DNA of 64,000 nt from Streptomyces sp. I6 (GTDB lineage: Bacteria > Actinomycetota > Actinomycetes > Streptomycetales > Streptomycetaceae): assembly GCA_003725745.1 (NCBI GenBank), contig RHDP01000001.1, positions 2,201,501-2,265,500 on the forward strand, given 5' to 3'. The notes beneath the pieces are model-generated. The model made no database searches, had not been told where the DNA came from, and saw only the letters and a list, made by a program, of their open reading frames with translations. Numbering within the stretch: position 1 is the first letter of the stretch; the number at the start of each line of letters is the position of its first letter. This document shows positions 6,620-59,082 of this stretch, one piece after another. The position numbers and the translations under genes are program-made.

Positions 6620-7934
6620 GTGACGGTGGTCGAGGTGGCACACGCGCTGGCGTGGGACCTTCAGGCACGGACGTTGCGGCGGCCGGTGACGGTCGAGGTG
6701 GCGCGGGAGCGGGATGTCGCGGGTCTGCCCTACGCCGTGGTGTATCGGGTCCCGGGACGGCAGGTTCCGCTGGAGGTGCGGCTGGTCTCCTGGCGGGACC
6801 ACTACGTCGGCCTGTGGCTCTACGACGACCGGGGTCGCCGCACCGACGAGCTGGACCCGAGGCTCCTGGACGACCGGAGCCGGCTGCTCGGCCGACGCAC
6901 CCGCACATGGCGGTACACCGGCCCGGAGATGGCGGAGTTCGACGAGCGGTGCCCCCGCTCCAGCATGGAACTGCTTCCGGACGGCAAGGGTTCTGTTTCA
7001 GAGGAACCGCAGGGTGAGCGGGGGCGGAGACTCGTCACGGTACCGGGCGCTGACGTACCGCGTTGGCAGGGCCGGCCCGGGTTCGGGGATTGGCCGGTCG
7101 TCTCGGCGCTCTGGCGGAGGCTGCCGTTACAGGTGACGTTCCGGCAGGCGGGCCTCGCCCCCGGTGCGGGCACGACGGGCGCCTGCGACGACACGTCCGA
7201 CGCGCCCGTCACCTGCTGGCGGCCACCGCAGCCCGCGCGTCCCGGGCCGATTGACGCGCTCTTCCGGCCCGGGACGCGTGTGACCGACGGATACCACCCC
7301 GAGATGACCGTCGTGGAGCCGCGCCAGTGGGGGACTCTGCGTGTGCCGAGCGGCCTGCTGGCCGTATCCGGACCGGACGTCCTCCCCGGCGGCGGGCCAG
7401 CCATCACGGTCTCCGTCCCGCCCGGGAAGTACGTACTCGAAGAAGCCCGGGTTCGTGTGGGCTACGACTGCGAGTGGAGCCAGGCCTGGGTCACCCATAC
7501 GGACACCACGGCGGTCCGACTGCGCGTCAGCGAGACCCCCCGCCGTGTCGTGGGAGATGGGACTCGGGCCGGACGACGACCCCCGTCTGCTCGGGGAGAA
7601 CGAGATCTTCGGCTTCTGTACCGACGGTGCGACCGGCTGCTTCGCCGATGCCGGCGCCCGGGAATCGCTCCACCGGCTCTTCGAACGACACCTTGTCCAT
7701 GAGGAGCCGGGGGTTGGTGAGGACATCCCCGATTCCCTGTACATCCTGCGCACTCAGGACGAGGCTTCGGGCGGCGAGTTGGTCGCCTTCGCGACGACCG
7801 GTGACGGTACCCACCCCGTGTGGGTGGGGCGCTCCGCGGACGGGGACCTGGCCGAGGTGGTGGTGCTGGTGGACGGGATGCCGACGATGCTGCAGGACGC
7901 CGGTGCCGACGGAGCGAAAACGGCACCGGCTTGA
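6620..7934 (+). pseudogene. DUF4241-type protein, frameshifted
   Basis: Two plus-strand frames join into one protein of about 437 aa: the first runs to ...RLRVSETP near 7540, and the second continues AVSWEMGLGPDDDPRLLGENE to the TGA at 7934. The join lies in a run of six C (7536-7541); removing one C restores the frame. The C-terminal half (LRVPSGLLAVS, YDCEWSQAWVT, GCFADAGA, FATTGDGTHPVWVGR) is characteristic of DUF4241 proteins, whose function is unknown. A TTA codon lies at 7127-7129. Start uncertain; GTG 6620 and GTG 6599 are both possible. Either a real pseudogene or a homopolymer error. Confidence 0.6.
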
Positions 7935-49533: not shown

Positions 49534-49782
49534 TCACCGCTCGCTCAGGGTCCGCAGCCAGCCGATCACGGCGTTCACCGTCGGGTAGTCGAGTTCGGCG
49601 ATCCGGGCGACGGCACGGATATCGGTCAGCCGTACGGGCAGGCATGCCGCGTCCAGCGCGCAGTGCAGCATCACCTGGTGCGCCTGTGTCGCCGGCAGGT
49701 CCTCCTCCACCCCCAGGCCGGGGCCCAGACAGGCCGAGACGGGCAGCGGCGGCGTCGGGAACGCCGGATGGTCCACGGTCAT
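49534..49782 (-). CDS. Small hypothetical protein
   Basis: 82 aa, ATG 49782. Not recognised. The middle ATQAHQVMLHCALDAACLPVRLTDIRAVARIAELDYPTVNAVIGWL looks like a folded helical domain, possibly winged-helix-like (DYPTVNAVIGWLRTL as recognition helix). Lies just downstream of a transposase remnant, so it could be host DNA interrupted by the insertion. Confidence 0.5.
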   Translation of the reverse strand: MTVDHPAFPTPPLPVSACLGPGLGVEEDLPATQAHQVMLHCALDAACLPVRLTDIRAVARIAELDYPTVNAVIGWLRTLSER

Positions 49783-49806
49783 GGTCGGATCACTCTCTCG
49801 TTCGGG

Positions 49807-50121
49807 TCAGGTCCCCGGGGCGGCCGGCCGGATGCTGCGCCGCCGGCCGGCGGTGAGGCCCCGGATGCCCGCCCGCCGCATCAGCAGCTGGACCGTCCCG
49901 CGGCTGACCGCGATGCCGTGGCGCGAGGTCAGTTCCTCGTGGATGCGCCGGTATCCATAGGTGCCGTGCGACGCGGCATGCACGGCGGTGATGACTTCGG
50001 TGAGCCAGGCGTGGCGGACGGAACGTGCGGAGGGCGGACGGGAGCGCCAGGCGAAGTACCCGGACTCGGTCACCCCCAGGACGCTCGCGGCGATCCGCAC
50101 GGGCAGGTCCTCGTGGGCCAT
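49807..50121 (-). pseudogene. IS3-family transposase OrfB, truncated
   Basis: 104 codons corresponding to the N-terminal HTH_21 part of an IS3 OrfB: FAAVRVMAHEDLPVRIAASVLGVTESGYFAWRSRPPS and HGTYGYRRIHEELTSRHGIAVSRGTVQLLMRRAGIRGL. The whole DDE integrase core (about 170 residues) is missing, so it cannot transpose. Overlaps orfA and would be read as an OrfAB fusion by -1 frameshifting. Confidence 0.82.
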
Positions 50122-50414
50122 CACGCGTACTGCCGCGAACCGTCTTTTGGGGACAGGGCCTCCCGCAGCAGCTCGGTCGTGCGCCGGAGGACGGCCACTT
50201 CGGTCTCCAGTTCCGTGATGCGTCGGCGTGCGGCCCTGAGTTCGGTCCCGGCGTCGGGGAGGTACCGCTGGTGCCGCGCCGGCGGCAGATACCTGCGCCG
50301 CCACTGGTAGAGCGTCCGCTCACTGAGGCCGAGGTCGACCGCGACCTTCTTCACGGGCTCGCCGTCGGCCAGCAGGTCGAGCGCCTGACGGCGCACCTCG
50401 GGTGGGTGACTCAT
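50121..50414 (-). CDS. IS3-family transposase OrfA
   Basis: 97 aa, ATG 50414. Helix-turn-helix (SHPPEVRRQALDLLADGEPVKKVAVDLGLSERTLYQWRRRY) followed by a leucine-zipper helix (ITELETEVAVLRRTTELLREAL), the standard OrfA layout. Near its end the codons CCA AAA preceded by C form a slippery C-CCA-AAA heptamer, suited to a -1 shift into OrfB (K then RRFAAVRV). Intact although the element is dead. Confidence 0.8.
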   Translation of the reverse strand: MSHPPEVRRQALDLLADGEPVKKVAVDLGLSERTLYQWRRRYLPPARHQRYLPDAGTELRAARRRITELETEVAVLRRTTELLREALSPKDGSRQYA

Positions 50415-50667
50415 CGGTGGTGGTCCTCCGGAGGACTGGTGGACGGGCCCGCCTGCCGGCCGGGGGCGGCGGCCCTGGCCGGCGGGCGGTGGGTCGGGGC
50501 CGGCAGACGGTGGGCCGGGCCGGCGGGCCGGTGCGGCGTCGGGGCGCGGCCCGGTCGAGGCACCCGCACCGGACGCCGCTCCTCGGCCGGCGGACCGCGC
50601 CCCGTGCGGCACCAAGGGCTGTCCCTCCCCGCCCTGCGGGCGGACGGAGCTGTTCTCGCAACGCGCC

Positions 50668-51354
50668 CTAGTCGATGTGGCGCCGCAGGGTGACGGTGGG
50701 CCGGAAGTCCCTCAGCGGGTCGACGGCCTCACCGCGCGGTGCGGTCGCGACCGCCTCCCGAAGCAGGGTGACCACCTCGGCGGCCAGGGAGTCGGCGCGG
50801 GCCCGGACGGTGCTGATCGGCTCCCGGCTGCGCTCCAGTTCGCCCAGCCGCCGTTCGAGCCGCGCGAGTTCGCCCCTGGTGTGGCGGCCCAGCGTGAACG
50901 AGTAGGGGGTGGAGACGATGAACTGGTAGGCGCCGGCGAAGGTCTGGCAGCCCTCGCAGTGGTCGTTGACCGCGCGGCTGGAGTTGGCGGCGTTGAGGCG
51001 CGCGACCGTACCGGTGACGGTGACGACCTGGAAGGAGAGGGCTACCGAGCGGCACGGCCTGTCGAGCGAGCAGCCCACGGACCGGGCGACCGCCCTGTTG
51101 CGCGCACCGACGCCGAGGCGTGTCCCCAGTTCACGGACGGCGAACTCGTCGTCGTAGTCGACTCGGTGCCGGGGGCCGGCGGTCGCCCGCGCCTCGTCCA
51201 CCACGATGCCGACGTAGCGGTTGCCGGTCGACGCGGACGAGGCAGCCCCCGCCGGGCCGGCCGTGGCGAGGCCTGCCGTACAGGCGGCGACGAGCATGCC
51301 GAGCCGGGCGACTCTGCGGCCGCTGCGGCCCTGGCGTGGTTTCCGGTGCGTCAC
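50668..51354 (-). CDS. Secreted protein associated with PqqD-M50 protease locus
   Basis: 228 aa, GTG 51354 behind AAAGGAG. Signal peptide (RVARLGMLVAACTAGLATAGPAGA, AxA site near residue 38). The mature part has two Cys pairs (VGCSLDRPCRSV, HCEGCQTFAG), a distinctive FAGAYQFIVSTPYSFTLGR, and a helical charged segment (GELARLERRLGELERS). No known domain. It follows the M50 protease gene by 51 bases in the same direction, so the two are probably one transcription unit. Confidence 0.7.
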   Translation of the reverse strand: MTHRKPRQGRSGRRVARLGMLVAACTAGLATAGPAGAASSASTGNRYVGIVVDEARATAGPRHRVDYDDEFAVRELGTRLGVGARNRAVARSVGCSLDRPCRSVALSFQVVTVTGTVARLNAANSSRAVNDHCEGCQTFAGAYQFIVSTPYSFTLGRHTRGELARLERRLGELERSREPISTVRARADSLAAEVVTLLREAVATAPRGEAVDPLRDFRPTVTLRRHID

Positions 51355-51405
51355 TGTGTGCTCCTTTGCTGGTGTACGGGGATCGGAGGTCGGGGTGGGC
51401 AGGGT

Positions 51406-53262
51406 CTACGGGTCCCGCGTCGCGCTCTGCGACTCCGAGGGGGTCGGGGAGGGTGAGGGGGAACCGGACGGTGTCGCGCTCGTCGTCGGCGACGCGCTGG
51501 GACCGGGACCGGCCGACGGTGAGGCCGAGGTCCGGCTCGGGCTGGGCGTCGGGCTGGGGGCCGCGGTCGGCCCGGCGGCCGTCGGCACGTTCTCCGCGGG
51601 GCTCGCGGAGGGCGGGGCGGTGACGGTGGCCGTGGCGACCGCGCCGACGCCGGGGGCGGCCGCGGGTACGGGTACGGCGGTCTCCGGTGGCGGGCCGTCC
51701 ACGGTGACCGGGTCCGGGGTGGCGCGCCTGGGGGGCTCCTCCGCGGGGGCCGCCGCCGTGGGGCGGACCGTGGGAACGCCGGGCTGGAGGATCGGCGCGA
51801 TGGGTGGCTGCCGTGGCAGCGGTTGCGGGGTCATGCCGGCGAGCCACGCCGCGCAGAGCGCCCCCGCTCCGGCCAGCACCCCGCCGCAGACGGCCACCCG
51901 CAGCCGGGGCTTGCCCTCCGTGGCGCGGGCGGTGGCCTTCACCAGCCGTCCCACCACGCGTACGGCGAGGTACGCGGCGCCGGCCAGGGGGCAGACGAGC
52001 ATGAAGCTTCCGACGACCCCGACGAGGCCGGCGGTGATCTGGCCTTCGGCGAAGGCCGACCAGGTACCCGCCGCCTGCTCCGCCAGCGAGCGCAGGCTGG
52101 TGACGAGCAGGCGGGGCAGGTTCCACAGGACGTAGCCGAGTTCGGCGGCGATCAGGGGCACCATGGTCACGACCCAGCCGGTGACCATGATCCGCGCGGG
52201 GCGCCTGAGCCCGGCCACCTCGGGAGACGGCGGGCGTCCCGGCAGCATGGACCGCAGGATGGGCTTGATCTTCCCGAAGAGGTCGGGGATCCCCGCGAGG
52301 TCTCCGAGGATGTAGTAGCCGTCCAGCCGTACCACCGGCAGCAGTTGTTCGAGGATCTCGAAGTGCACGAGGTAGATCGCGGCGAGGAAGAGCGGCTGGC
52401 CCGTGAGGAGGTACCCCAGGGCGAGGCCCAGCACGAAGACGATGTTGAAGTAGATGCCGCCCAGGTCGGTCCTGATCCGGCCGGCCCGCCCGATGCGGTA
52501 GACATCGGTGACTTCGGTGTACATCGAGGGCCAGATCAGGAAGAGGCCGCAGCCGATGCTTCCCGGTCGTGCGCCGCCGTACCTGCACGCCGACGCGTGC
52601 CCGAACTCGTGGAAGACCAGCGAGGCCACGATGAGCACGAAGACGGCGAGCATCAGCACCGGTTGCTCGAGAACCTGGAGCACCGGGCCGATCGCTCCGT
52701 GCACGGCGAAGAGCCAGACGTCCACACAGAGCGCCGCGATGATCACCAGGACCACGACCGGGGGCCGGTGCAGCCAGGACAGCGCCTGCGCGATACGGGC
52801 CACCTGCCGCTCGTGGAAGATCACCCGATGGCCCTTGAGGACCAGGAGCAGGTCGGTGGTGGGGCCGGCGACCTGGTCGCCCTCCTGCCCGAAGGGGACG
52901 GTGATGCCGAGCGGTTCGAGCTTGTGCTCGATGAGGTACTCGACGTTGTCGGCACTGACCTCGCGGCCGTAGCGGCCACTCACCCGGTGGGAGACGGTCT
53001 CGGTGTTCCGTACGCCGTCGATGGCCTCGGCCACCAGATAGAGCAGCCGGGAGAGCTGGACCACCTGTCCGTCCCCGCGGCGGACCAGGTACTTGCGCTC
53101 CGTGAAGCCGGATCCCTGGTACTCGCCGAGGAACTGGAGTCCCGCACCGAGGCGCGGAACGGGGAACAGCGTCTCCGCCTGCTCGTACGCGGAGGACGCT
53201 TCGCCCGTGTCGCAGGCCGCCGCCCCCACGGGACCGGGGTGGACCTTCTGGCTTCTGGTCAC
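51406..53262 (-). CDS. M50-family membrane metalloprotease with PqqD-like N-terminal domain
   Basis: 618 aa, GTG 53262. Residues about 45-125 (RKYLVRRGDGQVVQLSRLLY..VSGRYGREVSADNVEYLIE) look like a PqqD-type wing, the fold used as RiPP recognition element. Then several membrane helices with the M50 zinc motif HEFGH (His218, Glu219, His222) and the third ligand motif LDGYY (Asp314). After the last helix comes a ~120-aa Pro/Ser/Thr tail. Site-2-type proteases of this build cleave or help export peptides. Directly downstream of three small tandem peptides that may be its substrates. Confidence 0.8.
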   Translation of the reverse strand: MTRSQKVHPGPVGAAACDTGEASSAYEQAETLFPVPRLGAGLQFLGEYQGSGFTERKYLVRRGDGQVVQLSRLLYLVAEAIDGVRNTETVSHRVSGRYGREVSADNVEYLIEHKLEPLGITVPFGQEGDQVAGPTTDLLLVLKGHRVIFHERQVARIAQALSWLHRPPVVVLVIIAALCVDVWLFAVHGAIGPVLQVLEQPVLMLAVFVLIVASLVFHEFGHASACRYGGARPGSIGCGLFLIWPSMYTEVTDVYRIGRAGRIRTDLGGIYFNIVFVLGLALGYLLTGQPLFLAAIYLVHFEILEQLLPVVRLDGYYILGDLAGIPDLFGKIKPILRSMLPGRPPSPEVAGLRRPARIMVTGWVVTMVPLIAAELGYVLWNLPRLLVTSLRSLAEQAAGTWSAFAEGQITAGLVGVVGSFMLVCPLAGAAYLAVRVVGRLVKATARATEGKPRLRVAVCGGVLAGAGALCAAWLAGMTPQPLPRQPPIAPILQPGVPTVRPTAAAPAEEPPRRATPDPVTVDGPPPETAVPVPAAAPGVGAVATATVTAPPSASPAENVPTAAGPTAAPSPTPSPSRTSASPSAGPGPSASPTTSATPSGSPSPSPTPSESQSATRDP

Positions 53263-53329
53263 CGTCCTGCACTTCCTCCCGGAGCGGGCCGCGCCCCCGA
53301 GGACGCGGCCCGCACACGTCCGGGCGTTG

Positions 53330-53545
53330 CTACTGGCTGATCGTGATGGTCTGGGTGGCCTCGGAGACCGCCATGGCGTCCGGGGAGTCGACGTTGGCCG
53401 CGAGCGACTCGTTGTGGGCGTCGACGTAGGCGATGCGCTCGCTCACGTTCGAGGTCCTGACGAAGTTGAACCGGAGCCGGCCCAGGGCCTCGCGCCCGGG
53501 CAGCAACTCCGCGGCGGCCTCGGCGTTGAGCTGGTCGTTGGTCAT
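53330..53545 (-). CDS. Small precursor-like peptide, copy 1
   Basis: 71 aa. Shares with its two neighbours the block EAAAELLPGREALGRLRF, then VRTSNVSERIAYV and AHNESLAANV, and ends in ITISQ. No Cys and no signal peptide. The variable part is the last ~22 residues, from DSPDAM. Third in transcription order, 67 bases before the M50 protease. Conserved front, variable end and adjacency to a PqqD-M50 protein are the layout of a leader-plus-core precursor. Confidence 0.72.
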   Translation of the reverse strand: MTNDQLNAEAAAELLPGREALGRLRFNFVRTSNVSERIAYVDAHNESLAANVDSPDAMAVSEATQTITISQ

Positions 53546-53575
53546 GGTGGAACCCTTCTGGGAGGGAAGCGCCGG

Positions 53576-53791
53576 CTACTGGCTGACGCTGATGGACTGG
53601 GCGGCGGACGACGCCGCGACGGCGTACGGGGAGTGGATGTTGGTCGCGAGCGACTCGTTGTGGGCACTGACGTAGGCGATGCGCTCGCTCACGTTCGAGG
53701 TCCTGGCGAAGCCGAACCGCAGCCGGCCCAGGGCCTCGCGCCCGGGCAGCAGCTCCGCGGCGGCCTCGGTCTCGAGTTCTTCGACGTTCAT
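53576..53791 (-). CDS. Small precursor-like peptide, copy 2
   Basis: 71 aa paralogue: MNVEELETEAAAELLPGRE at the front, then FARTSNVSERIAYV, AHNESLATNIHSPYAV and an end in ISVSQ. It has the same 30-bp spacer with AGAAGG ribosome-binding site as copy 1, evidence of recent duplication. Confidence 0.72.
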   Translation of the reverse strand: MNVEELETEAAAELLPGREALGRLRFGFARTSNVSERIAYVSAHNESLATNIHSPYAVAASSAAQSISVSQ

Positions 53792-53821
53792 GGTGGAACC
53801 CTTCTGGGAGGGAAGCGCCGG

Positions 53822-54040
53822 CTACTGGCGGACGCTGATGGACTGGGTGGCCTCGGAGGCCGCGATGGCGTCCGGCGAGCAGACGTTGGCCGCGAGCGAC
53901 TCGTTGTGGGCGTCGACGTAGGCGATGCGCTCGCTCACGCTGGTGGTCCTGACGAAGTTGAACCGGAGCCGGCCCAGGGCCTCGCGCCCGGGCAGCAGCT
54001 CCGCGGCGGCCTCGGCGTCCAGTTCTCGCATGCCAAGCAT
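53822..54040 (-). CDS. Small precursor-like peptide, copy 3
   Basis: 72 aa, ATG 54040 with AAAGGA upstream; an internal ATG at 54031 is possible. Same conserved blocks as the other two, variable end NVCSPDAIAASEATQ and ISVRQ. It has the only cysteine of the three. First gene of the array, so its upstream region carries the promoter. Confidence 0.72.
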   Translation of the reverse strand: MLGMRELDAEAAAELLPGREALGRLRFNFVRTTSVSERIAYVDAHNESLAANVCSPDAIAASEATQSISVRQ

Positions 54041-54320: not shown

Positions 54321-54644
54321 ATGGCTATCCTCTCGTGCCTCAAGACGGGTGAACCGCCCGAAACCTCCGCGAGAGGGGTGCATGTGCTTGTCGTCCCAGG
54401 AGCGCTCGCGACCGCCGTGGTCCGCGACAGGACCGGGGAGCCGGTGGTGCTGCTCTCCGGCGAACTCCCCTCCGCCCTCACCCCTTCCGGCGTGGACGAG
54501 TTGCTCAACCTGGCCGCCGCGGTACTCGAAGCGGAGGAACTGGAACTCTTCCGGCGCTGCCTCGCGGCACTGCGCCGCGGCGGGAGACTCCGGGAAACCC
54601 GTATCGAGGTGAGCGGCGCGGTACTGACCATCTACCGGAGCTGA
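54321..54644 (+). CDS. Small protein from inverted duplication, copy A
   Basis: 107 aa, ATG 54321. Body GVHVLVVPGALATAVVRDRTG, PVVLLSGELPSALTPSGVDEL, LNLAAAVLEAEELELFRRCL, ETRIEVSGAVLTIYR. Unknown family; looks like a small alpha/beta protein. The DNA from 54349 to 54637 is repeated in inverted orientation at 55477-55765 with a single base change (Arg/Lys), so both copies encode almost the same protein. Confidence 0.6.
   Translation: MAILSCLKTGEPPETSARGVHVLVVPGALATAVVRDRTGEPVVLLSGELPSALTPSGVDELLNLAAAVLEAEELELFRRCLAALRRGGRLRETRIEVSGAVLTIYRS
54349..54637 (+). repeat. Inverted duplication, left arm
   Basis: 289 bp from GTGAACCGCCCG to ACCATCTACCG. The reverse complement is at 55477-55765 with one mismatch (GGGAGACTCC versus GGGAAACTCC). 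The arms enclose about 840 bp. Confidence 0.95.
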
Positions 54645-55050
54645 ACCACGGCCCGAGCGTACGAAACACCGCACGAAACACGGCACGGAACGCCGTCCGC
54701 ACCGCAGGACTCCCGGGCAGTTCACGATGATGAATTCGTGCGGATGCAGACTTTTCGCCGACTCGAAATGCGATGCATTACGGTTGCGATTTCCGCACAT
54801 GAGGCCGCGTGCCCAACCAGGCTGCAAAACGCCGCAGTTGGATCACCCTCGCGAGTGTTCTCCGAAGACGCGGCAACTCTGCTTGAAATCCCCGCCAACC
54901 CAAGCTCAGCGCCGGTTTGCCAGGTTTCCGGAACACCGTTCTCCCATGCGCCGACAAGACCTCAGCCCCCATATGCGCCAATGAATCCGATGCGTGATCC
55001 GCGTATGGTCCGGAGGGCCACCAGAAAACCCTCGAACCAGGAGAAAAACG
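54645..55050. other. Lower-GC spacer upstream of secreted peptide gene
   Basis: 406 bases with visibly lower GC from about 54725 to 55030 (e.g. GATGATGAATTCGTGCGG). No gene recognised; likely promoter region of the following secreted-peptide gene and possibly of foreign origin. Confidence 0.4.
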
Positions 55051-55371
55051 GTGAGAACATTCGCACGCGTCTTTGCGACGGCGGCGCTGGCCGTGACAGC
55101 CGGCGTCATTCCCATGACGGGCACGGCCATGGCCGCCGCACCGGCCCACTCGCCCGTCGTCGCGCACCAGTTCCACGACGTGGACCGGTGCGCCGACCTC
55201 GGCCGGCGGCACGTCAGGCTCCACACCTGGGACCGCCACCGCGCCCGCTGGGACCGCGACTGCCGCCACCACTGGGAGCGCCGTCTCGTACACCGGTCGC
55301 ACTGGTACGCCGCCCACGGGCGGTACCGGAACCACGCCGGACACGCCTGGGATTGCGGACACCGGTTCTGA
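55051..55371 (+). CDS. Secreted His/Arg/Trp-rich peptide
   Basis: 106 aa, GTG 55051 behind AGGAG. Signal peptide VRTFARVFATAALAVTAGVI..GTAMA with cleavage before AAPAHS. The mature ~75 residues are rich in His, Arg and Trp (HDVDRCADLGRRHVRLHTWD, HHWERRLVHRSHWYAAHGRY) with three Cys. Could bind metals, be cationic-antimicrobial-like or be structural. Sits inside the inverted duplication. Confidence 0.65.
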   Translation: MRTFARVFATAALAVTAGVIPMTGTAMAAAPAHSPVVAHQFHDVDRCADLGRRHVRLHTWDRHRARWDRDCRHHWERRLVHRSHWYAAHGRYRNHAGHAWDCGHRF

Positions 55372-55457: not shown

Positions 55458-55769
55458 TCAGCCGGACGGTCCGTCACGGTAGATGGTCAGTACCGCGCCG
55501 CTCACCTCGATACGGGTTTCCCGGAGTTTCCCGCCGCGGCGCAGTGCCGCGAGGCAGCGCCGGAAGAGTTCCAGTTCCTCCGCTTCGAGTACCGCGGCGG
55601 CCAGGTTGAGCAACTCGTCCACGCCGGAAGGGGTGAGGGCGGAGGGGAGTTCGCCGGAGAGCAGCACCACCGGCTCCCCGGTCCTGTCGCGGACCACGGC
55701 GGTCGCGAGCGCTCCTGGGACGACAAGCACATGCACCCCTCTCGCGGAGGTTTCGGGCGGTTCACTCAC
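55458..55769 (-). CDS. Small protein from inverted duplication, copy B
   Basis: 103 aa from GTG 55769 (VSEPPETSARGVHVLVVPG); an ATG at 55904 in the same frame would add 45 residues of low-complexity sequence. Apart from a Lys for Arg change and a different last few residues (DGPSG), it equals copy A. Same strand as the XRE regulator 220 bases upstream. Confidence 0.6.
   Translation of the reverse strand: MSEPPETSARGVHVLVVPGALATAVVRDRTGEPVVLLSGELPSALTPSGVDELLNLAAAVLEAEELELFRRCLAALRRGGKLRETRIEVSGAVLTIYRDGPSG
55477..55765 (-). repeat. Inverted duplication, right arm
   Basis: Reverse complement of 54349-54637 with one mismatch in 289 bp. Confidence 0.95.
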
Positions 55770-55991
55770 CCGACGGGGCGAGAGTAGACCTCCCGTCGCA
55801 CCTGTTTCCGCGCGATCCGATACTTCGCCGGCATATGCATCACCGGGCCGCGGCACGGGCGCGGCCGACCCGGAATCCGCGATCTCCCTCGCGGCTGCGC
55901 GCACCCCACCGCCCCTCGGCGGCGGGCACCGGATACCGGGCCGCCGGACTCGTCCGGCGGCCCGCGGCCGGAGGTGGCCGCGGGGGCCGGT

Positions 55992-56456
55992 TCAGTCGCT
56001 GCCGCCGCCCCGGCTGCTGCTGGCGCCGCCGCCGTCGGAGTGGTCGGGGTCGGCGTCGGGGTCGGCGGCGTCGGCGTCGGCGTCGGGCCGGTGGGTGTTG
56101 CGCAGGAGGGATTCGACGAGTGCGGTGACATGCCGGCGGTCGTCGGGGGTCAGCCGCCGGACGCTGGCGATGAGGGTGGCGACCTCGGGGTCGGCGGTGG
56201 CGCCGGGGGGCTCCTCGAAGTAGAGGTGGATTCCGCAGGCCTCGGCCGCTGCCCTGCGCACCGCCTCCAGGGGCAGCTCCAGACCCCGGGCGAGGCCCTC
56301 CAGGGTGGCCTGCTGCGGCATACGGGTGACCCGTTCGGCGGTGGCCAGATGGTGCACGGTGGAGCGCGGGACACCGCCGCGCCGGGCCACGTCGCCGTAG
56401 GACCAGCCCCGCTGCTCCAGCCGGCTCTTCACCAATTCCCGCAGTGCGTTGGCCAC
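55992..56456 (-). CDS. XRE-type helix-turn-helix regulator
   Basis: 154 aa from GTG 56456. N-terminal HTH (ALRELVKSRLEQRGWSYGDVARRGGVPRSTVHHLATAE) followed by QATLEGLARGLELPLEAVRRAAAEA, a standard Cro/CI-type DNA-binding domain, then a helical region (DRRHVTALVESLLRNTHRP) and an Asp/Ala/Gly-rich disordered tail. Two TCCA-N-TGGA palindromes lie 80-120 bases upstream, probable own operators. Confidence 0.72.
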   Translation of the reverse strand: MANALRELVKSRLEQRGWSYGDVARRGGVPRSTVHHLATAERVTRMPQQATLEGLARGLELPLEAVRRAAAEACGIHLYFEEPPGATADPEVATLIASVRRLTPDDRRHVTALVESLLRNTHRPDADADAADPDADPDHSDGGGASSSRGGGSD

Positions 56457-56573: not shown

Positions 56574-57139
56574 GCGTCGCCGGGCCATCGGGCACACCGC
56601 CTCCCACCCCTCCCCTACGGCGCCGCCCGAGCGCCCCGCGAGCCCCTGGGCGTCCACCCGGGCGCCCGGCACTTCGGGCACGGGCCCACCGGTTCAACGC
56701 CGCGCACCTCGGCGGGTCACGCCCGGCGCCGGCCGGCGGCAAGGCACCTCCGGTCGCGCCCGGCCGGGAAGTCCGCCCCGCCCCACCCGCCCCGCCCGGA
56801 GCGGCACCGCGCAGTGGCCGCGGACGCCCTTGCGATCACGCCCCCCGCTCCGGGACCCTGTCCTTCTGAGTCCGCGGCCCCGAGGGGGCAGCGGGCTCAA
56901 ACAGTTACGACTTGGGATGATTCGAGGAGATTCTCCTGCCGTGGCTGGCCCGTGACGGGGGTCCCGTTCATCGACGAACGCGGAGACGGGCATCATGCAA
57001 CCGGAAGACCATCGTCTTATGTCTACGGATACGGTGGTCAGCCACTGATGCGTCCGGTACAGGCTGGCCAAGGGGAGCCGCGGTCCGGACACGACCGAAC
57101 GATCACGCAGCCAGCAGGCGTGCGGGGGGAATGAAACGT
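56574..57139. other. Upstream region of cslA
   Basis: About 570 gene-free bases. The first half is GC-rich low complexity; the 56910-57060 part is less GC-rich and likely holds the cslA promoter. GGGGGGA at 57124-57130 is the ribosome-binding site of cslA. Confidence 0.45.
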
Positions 57140-59082
57140 ATGACGTCGACGCCGACCGGCGCCCGGCCGCAGGACGACGACCCTTCCCGGACCACGCAGC
57201 TTCGGGTTCCCCCGCAGCTCAGGACCGGAGGCCACCGGTCGCGCCCCAAGAAGGCGCTGCCGAGGTACGACTACGAGCACTACAGTCGGCTGGCCGGTCC
57301 CCTGACCCAGCCGGACCCGTCCAAACCGTACCGGGTGCAGTACCGCTCGCTGCTGTCGCAGGAGCCGCACCGCGTCCGGGCCGCCCTGCTCCTCGGCGCC
57401 GCGCCCCTGGTCTCGCTGGGCCTGTTCGCCTGGCTGATGCAGCCGCAGCACTGGACCGAGCGCGACCCCAACCTCGACAACGAGCTGCTGCTCTGGCTCG
57501 ACGTCGTCATGCTGGTGTCGATCGGCCTGATCGAGCTCTTCCGCACGATGAACGTCCTGTCGAACGCGCACGCGACCCTCGTCGCGCGTGACCCGATACC
57601 CGTCGTTCCGGAGTCGGGTACCCGCGTCGCCTTCCTCACCTCCTTCGTGCCGGGCAAGGAGCCCCTGGAGATGGTGACGAAGACGCTCGAGGCGGCCGTG
57701 CGGATCCGCCACCGCGGACTGATGCACGTGTGGCTGCTCGACGAGGGCGACGACCCGGCCGTCAAGGAGGTCTGCGCCCGGCTCGGCGTCCACCACTTCT
57801 CCCGCAAGGGCATAGCCAAGTGGAACCAGGAGAAGGGCGCCCACCGGGCCAAGACCAAGCACGGCAACTACAACGCCTGGCTCGAGGCGCACGGCGGCGA
57901 CTACGACTTCTTCGCGTCCGTCGACACCGACCACGTACCGCTGCCGAACTACCTGGAGCGGATGCTCGGGTACTTCCGCGACCCGGACGTCGGGTTCGTG
58001 ATCGGCCCCCAGGTCTACGGCAACTACGACACCTTCGTCACCAAGGCGGCCGAGTCCCAGCAGTTCCTCTTCCACGCCCTGATCCAGCGCGCCGGCAACC
58101 GCTACGGCGCCCCCATGTTCGTCGGCACCTCCAACGCCGTGCGGATCAGTGCCATCAAGCAGATCGGCGGCCTGTACGACTCGATCACCGAGGACATGGC
58201 CACCGGCTTCGAGATGCACCGGGCCAAGAACCCCGCCACCGGCAACAAGTGGCGGTCCGTCTACACCCCGGACGTGCTGGCCGTCGGTGAGGGCCCGTCC
58301 GCCTGGACCGACTTCTTCACCCAGCAGCTGCGCTGGTCCCGAGGCACCTACGAGACGATCCTCAAGCAGTACTGGAAGGGCTTCGGCACCCTGCCGGCCG
58401 GCAAGCTCTTCAACTACACCATGATGATCATCTTCTACCCGATGTCGGCCCTCAACTGGATCCTGGCGGCGCTCAGTTGCGCGCTGTTCCTGGGCATGGG
58501 CGCCTCGGGTGTGCAGATCGACCCGGCCGTCTGGATGATGCTGTACGGCAACGCCTCCGCCCTCCAGATCGGCCTCTACATCTGGAACCGCCGCCACAAC
58601 GTCTCGCCCCACGAACCCGAGGGCTCCGGCGGCCTGGCCGGCATGGTGATGTCCGCGCTCTCCGCACCGATCTACGCACGCTCCCTGATGGACGCCGTAC
58701 TGCGCCGCAAGAGCAAGTTCGTGGTGACGCCCAAGGGCGACTCCTCCAGCCCGGACACGCTCTTCGGCACGTTCCGCATCCACCTCTTCTTCATCATGAT
58801 CTTCGGCGGCTCGCTCGCCTCCTCGTTCTGGTTCGGGCACGACCACCCGGCGATGATCACCTGGGCCGGTCTGGCCCTGCTGATCACGGCGGCACCCGTC
58901 TTCGCCTGGCGGTACGGCATCCGCGAGGAGCAGAAGAAGCGGCGGGGTCGGCGCCGTGCGAAGCCGGGGACGGGCGGCGGGCCTCCGAGGCCGAGCCGCC
59001 GGCCGCCCACGAGCAGCAGCCGCACCCGTGGGCCCCCGCGGACCAGACCATGCAGATCGCCCTTGGGGGACGTAAGAAATGA
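57140..59082 (+). CDS. cslA: CslA, cellulose synthase-like glycosyltransferase (apparent 3' frameshift)
   Basis: About 647 aa if repaired. GT2 family enzyme with N-terminal cytoplasmic part, two helices, the catalytic domain with FFASVDTDHVPLPNY (DxD), SITEDMATGFEMH (TED) and QQLRWSRG (QxxRW), and further membrane helices after about residue 400. CslA synthesises a beta-glucan at hyphal tips, needed for morphology on surfaces. The natural C-terminus (EQQPHPWAPADQTMQIALGG) is in the next frame; one missing G in GGGG at 58966-58969 explains it. Uncorrected, the frame continues through glxA. Start ATG 57140 has ideal spacing to GGGGGGA; ATG 57131 does not. Confidence 0.9.

Follow-up and report, generated by a model that had tools for sequence, protein, structure and literature searches.

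Putative leader-guided protease system for small β-patterned proteins in Streptomyces sp. I6, one branch of a phylum-wide set of loci

Introduction

Proteases fused to a RiPP recognition element (RRE) are known from the pathways of ribosomally synthesized and posttranslationally modified peptides (RiPPs), where their task is to complete a peptide that has been chemically modified. In this work, we studied a set of five genes of Streptomyces sp. I6, in which three small peptide genes are followed by the gene of a membrane M50 (site-2) protease with a PqqD/RRE-like N-terminal domain and by that of a secreted cysteine-repeat protein. The set lies on contig RHDP01000001.1 of assembly GCA_003725745.1, in a stretch of 64,000 nucleotides (positions 2,201,501 to 2,265,500) that is called the window here and whose own numbering is used for window coordinates.

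The closest described systems are the daptides and the epipeptides. Excerpts of the daptide report (PMC10036551) describe an RRE fused to the N terminus of a membrane site-2 protease, with several short precursors and an acidic leader motif alongside; multiple short paralogues adjoining the RRE-peptidase fusion marked their discovery, and leader binding by the RRE was demonstrated for MpaB. For the epipeptide protease EpeP, both cleavage and export are thought to be its job, according to excerpts of a review (PMC10885120).

Like the daptide protease MpaP/DapP (NF041824), the window protease is an RRE-site-2 protease fusion beside several short leader-bearing precursors, and like the epipeptide proteases YydH/LiaK/EpeP (NF058609), it is an M50 membrane protease that would act on a small peptide. 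However, it reached 81.4 bits against NF041824 and 48.8 bits against NF058609, under the respective cut-offs of 300 and 225. The leader here reads [DE]L..LPxRE, whereas the daptide leader reads ELExMEAP, and all 146 peptides of our set have a C-terminal Gln (position 71), whereas daptide precursors end in Thr. A literature search, with subscription journals largely outside it, gave no description of this leader/protease system. Comparable machinery occurs in loci across a phylum; its cargo spans ~20 to >300 residues, and no RiPP-modifying enzyme was seen to recur among the neighbors evaluated. We are probably dealing with a new form of RRE-guided protease maturation that serves unmodified small proteins. 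By sequence comparison, the window set represents one branch of a leader-plus-protease system that spans the phylum and carries several types of cargo.

Results and Discussion

Organization and conservation of the peptide locus

An earlier, sequence-only reading had placed three peptides, an M50 protease, and a protein with a signal peptide and two pairs of Cys on one strand. All five genes were recovered there, on the minus strand, as follows.

53822 to 54040, minus strand: peptide gene A, 72 amino acids (aa), with an ATG at 54040; leader ELDAEAAAELLPGREAL, then a β-patterned cargo with one Cys; homologues were found.
53576 to 53791, minus strand: peptide gene B, 71 aa; leader of the same kind as in A and β-patterned cargo.
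53330 to 53545, minus strand: peptide gene C, 71 aa; leader of the same kind as in A and β-patterned cargo.
51406 to 53262, minus strand: membrane M50 (site-2) protease, 618 aa; HEFGH at residue 218, LDGY at residue 313, and a Pro/Ser/Thr-rich C-terminal tail.
52864 to 53166, minus strand: predicted PqqD/RRE-like N-terminal domain of the protease, residues 33 to 133, from model topology and profile comparison.
50668 to 51354, minus strand: putative secreted Cys-repeat protein, 228 aa; signal-peptide-like hydrophobic N terminus, with residues ~70 to 150 forming two cargo-like repeats with CX5C and CXXC.

The three peptide genes are tandem copies of a 246-nt unit, of which the reference copy shares 86% and 83% identity with the other two, and the genome itself gave three peptide matches and one match to the secreted protein. 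Compared with the related locus L033, the protease gene differs at 49/39/141 sites of the three codon positions and the secreted-protein gene at 25/20/48; the peptide genes (1/0/5, 4/2/7, and 8/3/8) show too few differences for judgement, and in peptide C, 9 codon changes alter the amino acid and 6 are silent. Since the gene order is kept in relatives, the five genes look real. Neither the peptides nor the secreted protein fell into a curated family, with weak matches at most (e.g., HAV_VP, E 0.093).

Within the genus, 38 of 295 genomes, its own included, hold relatives of peptide C, and the peptide alignment matched 2 of 396 genomes of a phylum sample, its own genome and one other of the same genus. 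Among named genomes, a scan yielded 77 peptide loci in Streptomyces, Streptacidiphilus, Actinacidiphila, Actinospica, one Sinomonas, and an Actinobacteria bacterium. The protease accompanies the peptides in 72 of these loci, a small gene called vrd in 72, an XRE-type gene in 71, the secreted protein in 64, and rodlin genes in 8; several of the contigs end early, and the 77 loci share species with a separate set of 20 loci. In the usual order, vrd and the XRE-type gene point away from the rest at one end, followed by two peptides, the protease, and the secreted protein; in the closest relatives of the window, vrd and the XRE-type gene are arranged differently. Because this neighborhood is conserved, vrd and the XRE-type protein appear to belong to the cassette. 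Homologous peptides are not widespread in the absence of the protease, as 5 of the 77 loci lack a detected one. Overall, the earlier finding is real and larger than first reported: its scope was too narrow, as the cassette extends to vrd and the XRE-type gene and forms one branch of a phylum-wide system.

A similar leader accompanies the protease while the cargo changes

The protease alignment matched 47 of the 396 phylum genomes (E <= 0.001), 25 of them below 1e-80, and relatives were present in 58 of 394 genomes of a class sample (E <= 1e-40). Most of 20 loci retrieved by the protease alone had small open reading frames (ORFs) with a similar leader close by. A leader pattern, [DEQ][LMI]x(7-8)LPx[RK]xx[LMIV], was fixed after these discovery loci and before new loci were retrieved. 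It matches 18 of the 20 discovery loci, with L173 off by one position, and it was found beside 19 of 20 new proteases versus 0 of 20 control regions; the new loci were hand-picked from the 58-genome class listing, two of them from one genome, and are not phylogenetically independent, and 18 of the 20 control regions come from the test-set genomes, the other two from other class-sample genomes (G850 and G367). Residue-shuffled ORFs gave a mean of 0.84 loci and a maximum of 4 (50 runs). The single miss is L186, whose contig ends 157 bp past the protease match. A narrower profile, derived from 71 leaders that were mostly of the Streptomyces type, did not generalize and was set aside (3 of 20 protease loci at 4 bits versus 0 to 4 in five residue-shuffled runs). 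Taken together, the protease in 72 of 77 peptide loci and the leader beside 19 of 20 new proteases support the proposal of the sequence-only reading that the peptides are likely substrates of the protease.

The leader motif is retained while the cargo changes, within the window's genus too (L181, L202, and L203). The cargo types comprise an A/N/S/Q alternating segment of ~40 to 50 residues; long proteins of 212 to 387 aa overall with AAPIDLAVAANANVAAPI-type repeats, in other lineages; Asn/Ser-rich segments (L198, L199, L201, and L204); Gly/His/Ser-rich cargo with a Cys-containing stretch near the end, which belongs to a second RRE-protease system of the window's genus (L181, L202, and L203); and short cargo of 21 to 31 residues (L175 and L179). 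The underlying list holds 79 ORFs and includes evident chance matches (L164, 139 aa; L177, 34 aa; L204, 120 aa).

Two further observations concern these loci. Small leaderless proteins (e.g., NVAGDVNAAVTANVGE...QRIVQR) lie near the protease in L165, L166, L168, L169, and L170, and match the peptide profile weakly (E 0.07 to 0.84). In Streptacidiphilus locus L064, an ORF at 7627 on the minus strand carries the leader and then a long Gly/His/Asp repeat, and adjoins a second protease match.

The protease carries a predicted PqqD-like domain

The HE-GH and LDGY motifs are invariant in 18 aligned protease sequences, and the window protease has multi-pass hydrophobic segments; its Pfam M50 match has an E value of 0.18. 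An AlphaFold2 model based on the 18 sequences (mean pLDDT 75.9, pTM 0.60) has its best PDB match by Foldseek in SpoIVFB, a site-2 protease (E 0.15). Residues 11 to 83 of the modeled part follow the order strand-strand-strand-helix-helix-helix, and an hhalign comparison of the N terminus with a profile of 30 PqqD domains from the window's genus gave a probability of 95% (score 44.3, 58 columns); 30 column shuffles reached a score of 16.7 and a probability of 2.8% at most, and two unrelated profiles reached 9.7. Pfam PqqD was matched directly by 2 of the 18 members, the window's own protein not among them, and in a PDB sequence search PqqD (3g2b) appeared at E 0.84, behind unrelated chains. Overall, model topology and profile comparison indicate that the N terminus is a PqqD/RRE-like domain, in agreement with the PqqD-type N terminus that had been proposed from the sequence.

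The cargo shows an alternating β-type pattern

Each small protein starts with an N-terminal tag ending in LPGREAL, and the cargo after the leader has ~48 residues in the window branch. Conservation was evaluated in 146 distinct peptides of 66 to 76 aa, a set without the shorter Sinomonas peptides and sequences with X. The conserved front half noted earlier was confirmed; the variable last ~22 residues were not, since the C-terminal half keeps A39, A43, N45, S47, A49, N51, S54, A59, S61, A63, Q65, I67, and Q71 in at least 94% of the peptides, with variable residues interspersed between the conserved positions. Between residues 38 and 71, 13 positions are conserved at 85% or more, and 12 of these 13 are odd-numbered (P = 1.2e-4). 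This shared parity fits two strands, 39 to 51 and 59 to 71, with one conserved and one free face, from which we infer that the cargo may form a β-assembly.

Curli show a similar alternation of small, Asn, and Gln residues in a β-arch fiber. The alternation of the cargo resembles such a fiber, but no Pfam curli or amyloid family was matched at E <= 10 by the 10 proteins given. Unlike rodlin, chaplin, or curli-type surface proteins, the peptides have no hydrophobic signal segment (19-residue hydropathy maxima of 0.24 to 0.63).

Rodlin genes adjoin the cassette in L061, L063, L065 to L068, L074, and L075, and three rodlin proteins of L061 and L063 lie above the NF041022 cut-off. Such neighbors fit a surface role; all of them are in one shared arrangement and may therefore count as one event.

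The secreted protein resembles the cargo and tracks it

The two Cys pairs that had been described in the secreted partner are present (C95/C101 and C133/C136), and the comparison goes beyond that description. With the peptide profile, the window protein scored 14.4 bits, the best of 3843 scored shuffles reaching 8.1, and 30 of 42 members lie above the 99th percentile of shuffles. A profile-profile comparison of cargo and Cys protein gave a score of 17.6, versus a maximum of 13.4 in 200 column shuffles. The Cys domain is found in 24 of 40 protease loci, by automatic label 12 times fused to the protease and 12 times separate, and in 0 of 20 control regions. When the 38 loci with leader ORFs were sorted by a cargo profile, whose seeds include peptides from six discovery loci, they split at E <= 3.5e-4 versus >= 13, and the Cys domain was present in 23 of 27 β-cargo loci versus 0 of 11 loci with other cargo (Fisher P = 1.1e-6; this P value and the one at the stricter threshold below assume independent loci, an assumption that related genomes violate). 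Cargo classes based on regular expressions had overlooked the long cargos with repeats and scored L198 and L201 as positive; they were dropped for the cargo profile. These results indicate that the secreted protein is more than a neighbor; by sequence, it contains a Cys form of the cargo motif, and it tracks β-type cargo.

In 12 of 40 loci, the protease is fused to the domain that the cargo resembles. The cargo could thus occupy the site of that domain, and the peptides might regulate the protease or the Cys protein, as inhibitor or chaperone, rather than being the product. We consider this very unlikely: unrelated cargos carry the leader in loci without the Cys domain (0 of 11), so what all these loci have in common is the leader and the protease.

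Proposed maturation pathway

Weighing these observations, we lean, with modest confidence, toward a system in which unmodified small proteins are recognized by their leader, cleaved, and released from the cell, and then act together with a Cys-rich partner, perhaps as β-assemblies at the surface. The PqqD-like domain of the protease would bind the leader tag on the cytoplasmic side, by analogy with MpaB, and the protease would cut at or just past the leader, freeing the ~48-residue cargo with no chemical modification. By analogy with EpeP, the protease possibly exports the cargo too. Outside the cell, the cargo, with two alternating-pattern strands and a short loop, would join the secreted Cys-repeat protein, which has a disulfide-capable version of the cargo motif, and both could form a small surface β-assembly. 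The XRE-type regulator nearby may control expression.

Several observations weigh against this pathway or parts of it. No cleavage site is visible in the peptides, the protease model has no PDB match at E <= 0.001 by Foldseek, and the β-assembly is read from the alternation of the cargo, of which a soluble hairpin would show the identical pattern. One discovery locus, L168, has a protease and no leader ORF, and the five peptide loci without a detected protease are L072, L077, L087, L108, and L129, with L072 and L077 at contig ends. As to the partner, the hhalign probability between cargo and Cys protein is low (20% and 13% in two comparisons), and because the resemblance is weak in absolute terms, it may have arisen by convergence. 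A stricter cargo threshold places the Cys domain in 21 of 25 versus 2 of 13 loci (P = 6.6e-5), and it is missing from four of the 27 β-cargo loci (L164, L165, L166, and L177). In L165, L166, and L177 the protease lies at the contig end or at most ~190 bp from it, and L164 has ~765 bp left downstream; the sequenced upstream side of these four loci, which is the site of the Cys domain in some other loci, is also without it.

A broader form of the proposal, which we regard as tentative and rather doubtful, is an actinobacterial leader-guided sorting route apart from Sec/Tat. Here, the RRE-like/site-2 protease would recognize the LPxRE leader, remove it, and move diverse small proteins to the surface, and the window branch would form a β-fiber with its Cys-repeat partner. 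If true, leader recognition by an RRE would be a protein-sorting principle, beyond natural products. The leader motif and the Cys domain offer direct handles for finding and testing the system.

Neighboring genes and the search for modifying enzymes

Neighbors in the wider loci were evaluated as 149 proteins of 100 to 700 aa within 3 kb, from crude gene calls that covered little of L203 and none of L204. They fell into 105 families, and the 25 considered here comprise every family with at least two members, most single-member families lying outside these 25. At this level, no known RiPP-modifying or ABC-transporter family was seen, in line with the absence of a modifying enzyme noted by the sequence-only reading. 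Among the families with at least two members, none is a decarboxylase, aminotransferase, methyltransferase, or ABC-transporter family, which would suit a daptide pathway, or a radical SAM family, which would suit an epipeptide pathway. The recurring families are general ones (helicase, CNNM, histidine kinase, BTAD, LuxR, and aldehyde dehydrogenase). The gene families common to at least 3 of 21 Streptomyces-type loci, judged by eye from crude gene calls, include general enzymes such as FAD-dependent and short-chain dehydrogenase types (3 loci each). A candidate modifying cluster, in the 6 to 8 kb between two peptide genes of L038, L039, and L041, was rejected: the ORF lists of L039 and L041 and the shared families, read by eye, gave transposase-like, sigma-factor-like, and helix-turn-helix (HTH) genes instead.

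These data bear on a RiPP pathway, in which an enzyme encoded elsewhere in the genome would modify the peptides, the protease would remove the leader, and the product would be antimicrobial. The protease does resemble the daptide and epipeptide leader proteases, at the scores given above, and daptides were discovered through multiple short paralogues beside an RRE-peptidase fusion, according to the same excerpts (PMC10036551). However, no known RiPP-modifying family recurs among the 149 neighbors, the cargo residues are invariant across the 146 peptides, and a similar leader heads proteins of 212 to 387 aa in other lineages, unlike a RiPP core; we judge this pathway improbable. Of the two functions suggested earlier, signaling or antimicrobial, the latter became less likely because the cargo is very conserved and the similar leader carries such large proteins elsewhere, and signaling is possible.

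The XRE-type gene, vrd, and other features of the window

The remaining members of the cassette are the following.

54384 to 54644, plus strand: small protein vrd, 86 aa, function unassigned; divergent from the peptides and present in 72 of 77 peptide loci.
55458 to 55730, minus strand: second, inverted copy of the vrd gene, supported by a 97% inverted repeat; tblastn match 55730 to 55476.
55992 to 56456, minus strand: XRE-type HTH protein, a possible regulator of the cassette; HTH_3 at 27.8 bits (cut-off 23), tblastn match 56456 to 56097, present in 71 of 77 peptide loci.

In Firmicutes, M50 proteases such as Eep make peptide pheromones that are sensed by XRE-family regulators. By that precedent, and with an XRE-type gene in nearly all peptide loci, the protease might free a cell-cell signal that this regulator senses directly or indirectly. 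However, a Pfam scan of the XRE protein recognized no domain for peptide sensing. HTH_3 is absent from the families with two or more members near the protease in the wider loci, which do include BTAD and LuxR types, and a two-strand pattern with a Cys-domain partner is unexpected for a signal peptide. Hence, a signaling role seems unlikely to us, and cleavage of unmodified small proteins that act with the Cys-repeat protein is the reading that we keep.

No Pfam family was found above the cut-off for vrd. The inverted repeat that duplicates its gene is 97% identical over 308 nt (54330 to 54637 and 55477 to 55784), and in some related loci (e.g., L056, L057, and L058), two XRE and two vrd copies flank the cassette.

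Other features lie around the cassette. Directly downstream of the secreted-protein gene, positions 49790 to 50615 (minus strand) hold a transposase-type HTH gene and a second ORF; the latter has matches of 41 to 79% identity at the equivalent site of 7 of 77 loci, as though it were retained. An uncharacterized 82-aa protein at 49534 to 49782 (minus strand) has relatives in 8 of 77 loci. On the plus strand, positions 54994 to 55371 encode a small, secreted-looking His/Arg/Trp-rich protein whose family occurs in 8 of the 21 Streptomyces-type loci, the window counted, and positions 57131 to 59062 encode a cellulose-synthase-like glycosyltransferase (CelA model, 95.5 bits versus a cut-off of 699.1).

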